Positions 19,755 to 57,481 of a DNA stretch of 64,000 bases are shown here, one piece after another; within the stretch, counting starts at the first letter, position 1, and each line of letters begins with the position of its first letter. The position numbers and the translations under genes are program-made. A model generated the notes under the pieces. It did no database searches. It saw only the letters and a program-made list of their open reading frames with translations, and had not been told where the DNA came from. Origin of the DNA: Candidatus Rothia avicola (GTDB taxonomy: Bacteria; Actinomycetota; Actinomycetes; Actinomycetales; Micrococcaceae); assembly GCA_019115985.1 (NCBI GenBank), contig DXCN01000040.1:62001-126000 (forward strand). Direction: 5' to 3'.

Positions 19755-21281
19755 TTGTATGACACGCAGACTACGCTAGAGACGGCAGAAGAAAGCGAGG
19801 TGAAGAACGTGGGCAAAATTGTGCGCAAGGTCCAGGAGCGCAAGCGGGTTCTGGACGCCATGGAACAGGGGCAGCTGGAATACCAGCAGCTCCTTCAGAT
19901 TGTTAAGTTTTCGGCAGCCTTTCAGGCCCGCATGGCCCACCTGCGCGACCTGGTAGACCGCCTCTTCGGGTCGTCGTCCTCGCGTATCGCCATTGCAGCC
20001 TTCTTGCTGGTCATTATTTTCTTCTCGCTTATGCTCTATACCCCCTGGGCCTCACGCGATGGCCAGCAGGTGGAGTTTCACCACGCTGTTTTTACGGCGA
20101 CTAGTGCCGTGACCGTCACCGGTCTCACTACGGTTTCTACCGCCGAACAGTGGACCTTCTTTGGCCAGCTCATGATTCTCTTAGGCTCGCAGATTGGCGG
20201 CCTTGGCACGCTCACCCTCACCTCCATTCTGGCGCTGGCGGTAGGGCGCAAGCTGGGGTTACGCTCCAAAATTATCGCCCAGGAATCTCTCAACATCGGA
20301 CGCCTGGGTGAGGTGGGCTCGGTACTCCGCACCGTGGCCTTTACCTCCATCTCCATTGAGGCCCTGATTGCCTTCACGCTTATTCCCCGCTTCCTGCTGC
20401 TGGGAGAGCCCCTCTGGCAGGCGGTCTGGCACGGCGTGTTCTATGCGGTCTCGTCCTTCAACAACGCGGGCTTCACCCCCCATTCAGACGGCATTGTGCC
20501 CTACGGCCACGACCTCTGGATTCTCTTCCCCATCGCCCTGGGCGTCATGGTGGGTTCGCTGGGTTTCCCCGTCATTCTGGTGCTGCGCAACAACCTGCGC
20601 TTTAGCAAGTGGAATCTCAACGCCAAACTCACCATCATCGGCACGCTGGTGCTCTTCTTCCTGGGCTCATTTGCCTGGGGCGCCCTAGAGTGGGGCAACG
20701 ACCGCACCATCGGCACCATGGGCGCGGGCAATAAAATCCTCAACGCCGCCTTTGCCTCGATTATGACCCGCTCCGGCGGCTTCAACCTGGTCGATATGGC
20801 AGACATTCACCCCGTCACCATGCTGCTCACCGACGTACTCATGTTCATCGGCGGCGGCTCCGCGTCCACCGCAGGCGGCATCAAAATCACCACCATCACC
20901 GTAGTCTTCCTGGCGATTCTGGCAGAAGCCCGCGGTGACCAGTTCGTCGTTGCCTTCAACCGCACCATTCCTGACGCCGTCCTGCGCATCGCCATCTCCG
21001 TAATCATGATGAGCTTCATGTTCGTGCTGACCGGCACCACCGCCATCATGCTCATCGGCAAGGTCGGCCTCGACCGGGCCCTCTTCGAGGTCATCTCAGC
21101 CTACGCAACCTGCGGCCTGTCCACCGGGCTCTCAGCCGAGCTGCCGCCGCCCGGAACCTACATACTCTCTGTCCTCATGCTCATTGGCCGTATCGGCACC
21201 ATCACCGTAGCCACCGGCTTGGCGATGCGCTCCCGCCGCCGCCTCTACAAGTTCCCCGAAGAAAGGCCCATCATTGGCTAG
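19755..21281 (+). CDS. TrkH/KtrB family potassium transporter
   Basis: TATSAVTVTGLTTVSTAEQW, SSFNNAGFTPHSDG, SIMTRSGGFNLVDM, SAYATCGLSTGLS selectivity-filter repeats. Start codon uncertain (TTG at 19755 or a later GTG). Confidence 0.92.
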   Translation: MYDTQTTLETAEESEVKNVGKIVRKVQERKRVLDAMEQGQLEYQQLLQIVKFSAAFQARMAHLRDLVDRLFGSSSSRIAIAAFLLVIIFFSLMLYTPWASRDGQQVEFHHAVFTATSAVTVTGLTTVSTAEQWTFFGQLMILLGSQIGGLGTLTLTSILALAVGRKLGLRSKIIAQESLNIGRLGEVGSVLRTVAFTSISIEALIAFTLIPRFLLLGEPLWQAVWHGVFYAVSSFNNAGFTPHSDGIVPYGHDLWILFPIALGVMVGSLGFPVILVLRNNLRFSKWNLNAKLTIIGTLVLFFLGSFAWGALEWGNDRTIGTMGAGNKILNAAFASIMTRSGGFNLVDMADIHPVTMLLTDVLMFIGGGSASTAGGIKITTITVVFLAILAEARGDQFVVAFNRTIPDAVLRIAISVIMMSFMFVLTGTTAIMLIGKVGLDRALFEVISAYATCGLSTGLSAELPPPGTYILSVLMLIGRIGTITVATGLAMRSRRRLYKFPEERPIIG

Positions 21282-21951
21282 AAAAGACTTCCGCCCAACC
21301 CACAGCGCCCCCGTGCTTGTGATTGGCCTAGGACGCTTTGGCTCGGCTACCGCTGCCCAGCTGGTCCACCAGAATAAAGAGGTTCTTGCTGTTGAGAAAG
21401 ACCCGGTGCTAGTGCAGAAATGGTCGGGCGACCTTACCCACGTGGTGGAGGCCGACGCCACCGATATGAATGCCCTGCGTCAGCTAGGGGCCCAGGACTT
21501 CACCGCCGCCGTAGTGGGTGTAGGCACCTCCGTAGAGGCCTCGGTGCTGATTACCGCCAACCTGGTGGACCTGGGCATTGAGCGCATTTGGGCTAAAGCT
21601 ATCACCCCTTCTCATGGCAAGATTCTCTCCCGTATTGGAGCACACCGGGTTGTTTACCCGGAGTCGGACGCCGGGGTACGAGCAGCCCACCTGATCTCCG
21701 GTCGCCTACTGGACTTCATCGAGTTCGATGACGATTTTGCCATCGTCAAAATGTACCCGCCCAAGGAGACCCACGGCTTCACCCTGGCCGAGTCTGATGT
21801 GCGGTCTAAATACGGGGTGACCATTGTGGGAGTGAAATCTCCGGGTGAAGAAATTACCTACGCAACACCCGATACCCGGGTTTCTTCACGCGATTTATTG
21901 ATTGTCTCGGGCCAGGTAGACCTTATTGAAAGATTTGCCGCACGACCCTAA
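21274..21951 (+). CDS. TrkA/KtrA family potassium uptake regulatory subunit
   Basis: VLVIGLGRFGSATAAQLV Rossmann motif and TrkA_C-like tail; overlaps the trkH-like gene. Confidence 0.92.
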   Translation: MARKDFRPTHSAPVLVIGLGRFGSATAAQLVHQNKEVLAVEKDPVLVQKWSGDLTHVVEADATDMNALRQLGAQDFTAAVVGVGTSVEASVLITANLVDLGIERIWAKAITPSHGKILSRIGAHRVVYPESDAGVRAAHLISGRLLDFIEFDDDFAIVKMYPPKETHGFTLAESDVRSKYGVTIVGVKSPGEEITYATPDTRVSSRDLLIVSGQVDLIERFAARP

Positions 21952-22116
21952 CAGGTTTATACCTACAAGAAAGAGTTGACTATACCCTATACCCACCCGA
22001 GCATAGAAACCGCCCAGGTGTCTTCCGAAATAATTCGTCTTTTTTCAGACTTCAGGATGCATAAACTTAAAAACTGGCATATAGTTATAACTACCTCTAA
22101 AGGTGCGAGTGATTAC

Positions 22117-22279
22117 TGAACGGTCCGCGAACCCGTTCAAGTAGCTCAAAACCTGAAGATTCCCAGATGGTTCCCCCTAATCCCATCTCCTTCAGGTTAC
22201 GAGCCTTCTCTTAGAGCCGGATTCCTACCGGCAAAAGAGAAACCTGAAGGCCAGTCCGATTCCCTACGGACTGGCCTTT
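22117..22279 (+). ncRNA. Candidate orphan structured RNA with intrinsic terminator
   Basis: Consecutive stems TGAACGG/CCGTTCA, AACCTGAAG/CTTCAGGTT (inner AGATGG/CCATCT), TCTCTT/AAGAGA with inner GCCGG/CCGGC, AAGGCCAGTCCG/CGGACTGGCCTT followed by ta. No ORF in the region. Confidence 0.5.
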
Positions 22280-22313
22280 AGTGTATCTAGATTCCTTGTT
22301 CAGGAAAGAAAAA

Positions 22314-22356
22314 GCAGGCTGCCCTACCCTACTCCACAAGGAGTTTTGGTAGCACA
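22314..22356 (-). terminator. proC terminator
   Basis: Minus-strand AGCAGGCTG...CAGCCTGCT hairpin with inner CTACC/GGTAG and ACTCC/GGAGT, then TTTTTCTTT. Confidence 0.8.
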
Positions 22357-22396
22357 GCCTGCTCTTATAGGACCTTCTTTTTAAGCTAGGTCTGAA

Positions 22397-23245
22397 CTAT
22401 TTTTCGGAGCTGAACTCTTCGGTCATTTCCTCGTTTCGAGCCAGGCAGGCCCGCATAGCGGTCTCGGTTAGTTCGAAGAGGCCGCCATCGATGTAGGCGG
22501 TAATGGCCTTATCGGTAGTGCCCTTAGGGCTGGTGACAGCTTTGCGGAGGTCCCGGGGGGTGGGGTCAACATCTAGCAGGTAGCCCGCACCGGCTACCGT
22601 AGCGGCAGCTAGCTCGGTAGCAGTTTTTTCGTCCAGCCCCAGCTTAACCCCGGCAGTGGCCATAGTTTCTGCTAGTAAGAAGGCGTAGGCAGGGCCTGAA
22701 CCAGATACTGCGGTCACCGCCCCCATCTGCTCTTCCTCAACCTCAATCACCCGACCGGCTGCCCCCAGAACCGAAGCGGCGGCGTCCTTAAGCTCCTCGG
22801 TCACGGTCTGCCCCACCGAGATAGCCAGCACGCCCTTGCCCACCCGCGAAGGAGTATTGGGCATACAGCGGATTGCGGGCTGCCCTTCGGGCAGAGCCCG
22901 CTGCAGGGCTTCTAGGGTGATACCGGCCGCAACCGACACCACTACGGTCTTCTCGCCCAGAGCCGGTGAAATTTCGCGGGCAAGATCGAGGATCGCGTAG
23001 GGCTTGACACCCAGCAGCACCACGTCGGCCCCTTCAGTTGCTTTGAGGTTAGCCTGCGCATCATCCTCACCGGCAAGGATGCTTACATCCTGTGCCCCCT
23101 CCCCCAGCTTCTCACGCAGGGTAGAGATGCTGGCGTGGGAGCCAACAGTCGCGCGCACAGAGGTAGGGGCGGTACCCGCAGCAAGCAGGCCCGAGGCGAT
23201 CGCTCCGTTCATGGAGCCAGTTCCGATAAAAGCAACAGTAGTCAC
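22397..23245 (-). CDS. proC: Pyrroline-5-carboxylate reductase
   Basis: FIGTGSMNGAIASGLL, CMPNTPSRVGKGV, AVSGSGPAYAFLLAETM, VTSPKGTTDKAI. Confidence 0.96.
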   Translation of the reverse strand: MTTVAFIGTGSMNGAIASGLLAAGTAPTSVRATVGSHASISTLREKLGEGAQDVSILAGEDDAQANLKATEGADVVLLGVKPYAILDLAREISPALGEKTVVVSVAAGITLEALQRALPEGQPAIRCMPNTPSRVGKGVLAISVGQTVTEELKDAAASVLGAAGRVIEVEEEQMGAVTAVSGSGPAYAFLLAETMATAGVKLGLDEKTATELAAATVAGAGYLLDVDPTPRDLRKAVTSPKGTTDKAITAYIDGGLFELTETAMRACLARNEEMTEEFSSEK

Positions 23246-24066
23246 GATGTTCTCCTAGCAAGGTGGGTGCGGGCAAACTGCAGGGTCTCGTAGAGCATAT
23301 CGTCACGGACCCCTGCGCCCTTGGCCTTGCGAGTTGACACTTCGGCACAGACAACGCCCTCGAAATCGCTGGCTGCGATGTACTGTAGGGTCTCGGCGAC
23401 GGGCTGGGTACCGTGGCCGGGTACCAGGTGTTCATCCATGACCTTATCGCCGGAACCGTCGGTCAGGTGCACATGCCCCAGGCGGGAGCCGATGCGTTTG
23501 ACGGCTTCGAGGGAGTCGTCCCCGGCTGCGGCTGCATGGGAGAAGTCCCAGGTCATCCAGTCGTAGTCGAAGCGGGAGGGGTCCCAGTGGGGGGCGTACA
23601 TCTCTACCGCATGGCCCTTGAAGGACCAGGGGTACATGTTTTCCACGGCGATTTTGACGTTCTCAAGCTCTGATATTTCGCGCACGCCCGCAACGAAGTT
23701 CTTGGCGTAGAGCTTCTGCCAGCGGAAGGGCGGGTGGGCGACAATGACGTCCGCCCCTACCGCCTTGGTCATTTTGGCTGCCATCTGCATTTTGTTCCAG
23801 GCCCGGCCCCAGACCTGCTGGGTCAGGAGCAGGGTGGGGGCGTGAATGGCGGAGATAGGAATCTGGTACTTCTGGATCAGGTCAAGCAGGTCGTGGGGCT
23901 CTTGGGAGAGGGCCGAGTGGGTGATCATGACTTCCACGCTGTCGTAGCCCAGGTCTACGGCGGTTGAGAAGGTTTCGGGCACGCCGAGCGGGAAGAGGCA
24001 GGAGGTAGAAAGTGCCACCGGCACGGGTTTGCGGACGGACGGGTTCTTGGGTGCCTCGATGCTCAT
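23242..24066 (-). CDS. Sugar phosphate isomerase/epimerase (xylose isomerase-like TIM barrel)
   Basis: Metal-site TIM barrel style (IAVENMYPW, LGHVHLTDGSGDKVMDEHLVPGHG); adjacent to proC. Confidence 0.87.
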   Translation of the reverse strand: MSIEAPKNPSVRKPVPVALSTSCLFPLGVPETFSTAVDLGYDSVEVMITHSALSQEPHDLLDLIQKYQIPISAIHAPTLLLTQQVWGRAWNKMQMAAKMTKAVGADVIVAHPPFRWQKLYAKNFVAGVREISELENVKIAVENMYPWSFKGHAVEMYAPHWDPSRFDYDWMTWDFSHAAAAGDDSLEAVKRIGSRLGHVHLTDGSGDKVMDEHLVPGHGTQPVAETLQYIAASDFEGVVCAEVSTRKAKGAGVRDDMLYETLQFARTHLARRTS

Positions 24067-57404: not shown

Positions 57405-57481
57405 CGGGATGTGGCGCAGCTTGGTAGCGCGCGTCGTTCGGGACGACGAGGCCGCAGGTTCAAATCCTGTCATCCCGACCA
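57405..57481 (+). tRNA. tRNA-Pro (anticodon CGG), CCA encoded
   Basis: CGGGATG/CATCCCG acceptor, CGTCG-TTCGGGA-CGACG anticodon arm, GGTTCAAATCC T arm, ACCA 3' end. Confidence 0.97.

Follow-up and report, generated by a model that had tools for sequence, protein, structure and literature searches.

Several bacterial small RNAs (sRNAs) are known in which a C-rich single-stranded motif is directed against mRNAs. LhrC of Listeria monocytogenes is present in multiple copies under the control of a two-component system; its UCCC motifs bind G-rich sites in mRNAs, and its CU-rich sites block a Shine-Dalgarno (SD) sequence (PMC4132741). Among Gram-positive bacteria, RsaE and further sRNAs with the UCCC motif also direct a C-rich single-stranded stretch at the SD (cited in PMC4132741). 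Two more sRNAs are relevant here: Mcr7, which is PhoP-dependent in Mycobacterium tuberculosis (PMC4038636), and 6C RNA (B11, RF01066), an actinobacterial sRNA with C-rich hairpin loops.

In this study, an RNA gene was analysed in a window of 64,000 nucleotides (the whole stretch of DNA examined) from a Rothia nasimurium-like genome (genus Rothia, family Micrococcaceae; 2.24 Mb, 78 contigs). It probably encodes a trans-acting sRNA belonging to an often multicopy family of the Micrococcaceae, whose C-rich loops would repress mRNAs with G-rich ribosome-binding sites. As with LhrC, there are multicopy short sRNAs with several C-rich loop sites and a link to a response regulator, the regulator and the targets being proposed here from sequence. 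LhrC belongs to another phylum, common descent is not indicated, and we know of no 5' module shared with it. RsaE and the other UCCC-motif sRNAs differ in structure, and Rfam scans indicate no sequence relationship to them. Mcr7, too, comes from an actinobacterium and is controlled by PhoP, as the present family would be by a PhoP-type regulator if the proposal made here is correct; none of the searches run here indicated a relationship to it. The RNA shares C-rich hairpin loops with 6C, but 6C consists of two neighbouring hairpins bearing long runs of C and lacks the ACCUC...AAGGUGCGAGUGAU module. Instead of two hairpins with loops of about six Cs, the window has the loops TTCCCCCTAATC, ATTCCTA and ATTCCCTA. 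RF01066 gave no match in 21900-22450 even at E<=10 and none in the window's genome; its matches within the order lie in other families, where the loci are different.

Scanning the whole window against Rfam matched only a tRNA at 57405-57478. The gap around the RNA (21900-22450) gave no match at the curated cut-offs, so that identification through Rfam, as the initial annotation had proposed, yielded no name, and nothing above cut-off was found at the loci of 17 relatives. Weak sub-cut-off matches to STnc450 and Atu_C4 rested on hairpin HP5 alone and were taken as chance. Literature searches did not find a description of this RNA family. Judged by this absence from Rfam and the literature, which is not proof, the family is apparently undescribed; its unusual traits are the taxon-wide copy number, the promoter array and the modular build.

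The features of the locus are listed in Table 1.

Table 1. Features of the RNA gene and its surroundings (positions in the window)
Feature	Position	Strand	Remarks
trkH	19755-21281	+	flanking gene
trkA (TrkA-domain gene)	21274-21951	+	flanking gene, ends at 21951
-10 box TATAGT	22080-22085	+	putative promoter; kept in Rothia homologues L003-L014
Small-RNA gene	~22090-22286	+	stand-alone, ~195 nt, in trkA-proC gap
5' module ACTACCTCTAAAGGTGCGAGTGATTAC	22090-22116	+	invariant; BLAST and CM matches across Micrococcaceae
HP1	22093-22104	+	4-bp stem ACCU/AGGU, variable loop; SD/anti-SD-like arms
HP2	22117-22139	+	TGAACGG/CCGTTCA, loop TCCGCGAAC; compensatory changes between subfamilies
HP3	22144-22204	+	long stem, covarying; apical loop TTCCCCCTAATC at 22171-22182
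HP4	22206-22241	+	loop ATTCCTA at 22221-22227; folds, variable in relatives
HP5	22247-22278	+	12-bp terminator-like stem; loop ATTCCCTA at 22259-22266
Inverted repeat GCAGGCTG...CAGCCTGC	22314-22362		outside the RNA
proC	22397-23245	-	flanking gene, convergent with trkA
Xylose-isomerase-like TIM-barrel gene	23242-24066	-	beyond proC

The gap between trkA and proC is about 445 nt long and contains no ORF of at least 60 aa. Region 22080-22300 folded with -84.6 kcal/mol, compared with -50 ± 4.25 in shuffles (z = -8.1). The four stems that the initial annotation had described in this gap were present (HP2 to HP5), the last being the 12-bp terminator-like one. A fifth, HP1, lies upstream of them in the 5' module, which was absent from that annotation and is the most conserved part of the RNA. 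The module is built of HP1, a small hairpin with arms ACCT (22093-22096) and AGGT (22101-22104), plus GCGAGUGAU, and its 5' end at 22090 is the presumed start of the RNA. HP5 is followed by TTTAGTGTAT in the window and by long T runs in the relatives L015 and L017. The four reported copies of GATTCC, out of 15 plus-strand copies in the 64 kb, do occur in the gap, three of them one position from where they had been placed (true positions 22158, 22220, 22258 and 22290). Beyond the RNA, a terminator-like site with a T-rich tail was seen on the minus strand at ~22330-22311, and the inverted repeat at 22314-22362, whose loop length varies between strain copies, probably terminates transcription of proC, which runs towards trkA.

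The full five-hairpin RNA was found by BLAST in about a dozen Rothia genomes with 76-96% identity, the R. nasimurium strains showing 93-96%; an exact-pattern scan of contigs returned R. nasimurium strains plus short chance matches. In 14 aligned sequences, all 12 pairs of HP5 were kept (168/168 cells paired), with double changes at 9 of the 12, and its covariation score was reached by none of 500 shuffles. The same was true of HP3 (0.466 versus 0.203 in shuffles; 0/500) and, across subfamilies, of HP2 (0.588 versus 0.266; 0/500). These shuffles keep the relatedness of the sequences, but a control with slid partners also collapsed. HP1 was paired in all 85 distinct copies and is too invariant to give proof by covariation. 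The C-rich loops TTCCCCCTAA and ATTCCCTA were near-invariant in the Rothia homologues, with identities of 0.96-0.98 for loops and 0.62-0.82 for arms (0.96 and 0.62, respectively, in HP3); column identity in HP4 was 0.57. Fixed loops on stems that turn over would be expected of an RNA whose contacts are made by its loops rather than by its stems. Stems and loops were thus preserved in the homologues; GATTCC as such was not, the conserved core of the loops being TTCC(C)nTA. This preservation supports the suggestion of the initial annotation that a stand-alone sRNA with C-rich loops could target G-rich SD regions.

Bases 22090-22140 gave BLAST matches far beyond Rothia. A search with a 30-position model of the 5' module (threshold E<=0.001) matched 236 of 388 Micrococcaceae genomes (about 60%), in 26 of 32 genera. 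There were no matches in about 360 genomes of the order's other families or in the plasmids and phages searched, and the three obtained in 346 genomes of the class (E 0.004-0.008) equal the number expected by chance. The module core GTGCGAGTGAT occurred in 85/85 distinct aligned copies; GCGAGUGAU after HP1 was invariant among the copies found, with the search model favouring it, and the same search bias applies to the invariant GUGCGAGUGAU core. Genomes carry from 1 to 8 copies, that of the window carrying 1. Copies arranged in tandem, 160-220 bp apart, were seen in several genomes (e.g. L074, L068, L070, L093, L119), every one of the copies coming with a promoter, a module and a terminator-like hairpin of its own. 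Between one and four hairpins follow the module, and a T-rich tail usually comes after the final one; compact members are ~65-120 nt long, compared with ~195 nt for the window's member. Genes downstream of the element were on the same strand in 37 cases and on the opposite strand in 47 (crude ORF calling), and no consistent same-strand downstream gene was found across the family.

Three further observations concern individual genomes or members. The 5' module was unmatched in eight Rothia genomes (G002, G033, G101, G244, G309, G328, G333 and G341); the Rothia genomes without a match are mostly complete, and the gene seems to be lost or diverged in part of the genus. At L097:1541, L061:1501, L107:1309, L086:1491 and L076:1501, the terminator hairpin apparently falls within the 3' end of the coding sequence of a convergent gene, one similar to the window's TIM-barrel isomerase gene. 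HP1 carries an insertion of 15-16 nt at L076:1501-1547 and L081:1501-1546, in which the 5' module seems to be partly duplicated.

Upstream of the module, a -10 box TAnnnT, mostly TAnnGT, was found family-wide (PWM) 6-8 nt 5' of HP1. In most members, as many as four CAG boxes stand upstream of it with an exact 11-bp period, in fixed register with the -10 box. In 73 non-redundant upstream regions, 62 CAG pairs were spaced at 11 bp, compared with 1.06 expected from shuffles, 22 at 22 bp and 11 at 33 bp; at least two of the four array boxes were present in 59 of the 73. The array unit TTCCCAG/TTCACAG is similar to the motif of M. tuberculosis PhoP, TCACAGC followed by a 4-bp spacer; this regulator binds TCACAGC-N4 repeats, trimers and tetramers included (PMC4832192). 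Across the family, 7-bp direct repeats with a 4-bp spacer lie upstream of the -10 box in the manner of PhoP/OmpR-type promoters and resemble sites for a two-component stress regulator; the window's own promoter has 0 of the 4 array boxes. Because the 11-bp geometry is also used by other OmpR-family regulators, the array does not single out one regulator.

The window's clade has a conserved block, GTGCATAAAC-N15-TATAGT, starting near 22056. Its promoter consists of TATAGT with a poorly conserved -35 region, no good -35 box and no array, and the related Rothia loci L015 and L017 have the promoter TTGGCA-N18-TATGAT. The clade has lost the CAG array and has a plainer promoter; therefore, the gene seems to have escaped control by the regulator in this lineage. 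The number of OmpR-type regulators showed no visible difference between Rothia with and without the array.

A C-rich loop in a strong hairpin was present in 76 of 110 members (e.g. TTCCCCCCAAC). In a contiguous-stem scan, such loops were found in 30 of 80 element hairpins and in 27 of 937 control hairpins from the same loci, a comparison whose Fisher p-value overstates the evidence because the members are related; G-rich loops numbered 0 of 80 and 36 of 937, respectively. In four members of one subfamily, the loop contains the literal anti-SD CCUCCUU or CCUCCU, CCUCCUU being the 16S anti-Shine-Dalgarno sequence. At L068:2087, L070:1032, L091:1038 and L105:1508, the terminal loop CCTCCTT (or CCTCCT) replaces CCCCCC. 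As in LhrC, C-rich single-stranded motifs are conserved in the loops of the predicted folds. A search of the window's own genome for targets of the HP3 loop gave TAGGGGGAA followed by TG 11 times, compared with 8 for the reversed control, showing no enrichment, and the matches do not look like conserved starts.

The lasting C-rich loops, the anti-SD loops and the lack of a protein frame or dependent gene favour trans-acting pairing with SD sequences. The family, its structure and its promoter were computed, and from them we infer targets, regulator and expression. In most members, an OmpR/PhoP-family response regulator may drive transcription, whereas the window's clade would rely on a plain sigma-70-type promoter. 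By pairing with the G-rich ribosome-binding sites of their target mRNAs, the C-rich loops would block translation, and having several of them on one molecule would provide redundancy. The invariant GCGAGUGAU could serve as a common handle, whether as a protein-binding site, as protection of the 5' end or as a seed.

SD pairing can explain at most a part of the family's action, because 34 of the 110 members have no obvious C-rich loop. A protein-binding site at the 5' module would be the chief rival or complement to loop pairing. It is possible, at rather long odds, that the RNA acts mainly through this module, whether by binding a protein, as a sponge RNA or as a seed for a single conserved partner, with the hairpins serving as terminators and the C-rich loops being secondary. 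The module is the sole part common to all members, many short members consist of module plus terminator only, and its GUGCGAGUGAU core is invariant within the bias noted above. However, the C-rich loops are strongly enriched and are conserved while the stems turn over, and the exact complements of the 13-nt module that could be placed in 29 genomes all lay inside module copies themselves, which argues against a single conserved antisense target.

The other alternatives fare much worse. That the region is merely a strong bidirectional terminator between convergent trkA and proC is very unlikely: HP5, lying between convergent genes, does form a terminator-like stem, but a conserved promoter and the 5' module lie upstream of it, the module recurs at many loci where the genes are oriented otherwise, and proC seems to have its own terminator in the inverted repeat. 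No more credit can be given to a gene for a micropeptide or a short coding leader (GTG CGA GTG ATN ...); AAAGG stands 5 nt before the GUG and the short frame is open, but the peptides vary in length and sequence and the indels in HP2 are not multiples of three.

Least credible of all is the orphan riboswitch or terminator/antiterminator switch put forward in the initial annotation, in which CCTTCAGGTT (22189-22198) pairs either within HP3 with AACCTGAAG (22150-22158) or with AACCTGAAGG (22241-22250) at the base of HP5. The three segments lie exactly as claimed, and both pairings (9 and 10 bp, the latter perfect) exist in the window, but the alternative helix is intact in the window's genome only, and over the homologue alignment 51.5% of its cells pair compared with 49.7% in shuffles. 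Strains 94-96% identical to the window have AAGCTGAAGG in place of AACCTGAAGG, with the HP3 stem keeping 8-9 bp, and remoter ones have no complement; the two exclusive helices are thus not both conserved, and the switch was rejected. A role as a leader or riboswitch controlling the next gene was also rejected: downstream genes lie on either strand in inconsistent orientation, so that no same-strand gene follows regularly, and Rfam scans gave no riboswitch.

Returning to the trans-acting sRNA, a fuller scheme can be offered tentatively. One two-component response regulator would control up to eight dispersed and tandem sRNAs per genome, with the 5' module engaging an RNA-binding partner and the SD-complementary loops being interchangeable; if true, this would be a regulatory system specific to the Micrococcaceae. 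To our knowledge, no classical Hfq is known in these bacteria, and the invariant 5' module with its swappable hairpins would allow a direct test of how sRNAs act without it. The regulatory sRNAs of Actinobacteria have been poorly mapped, and a multicopy family with a sharp promoter array may give access to a post-transcriptional stress regulon missed by annotation pipelines.
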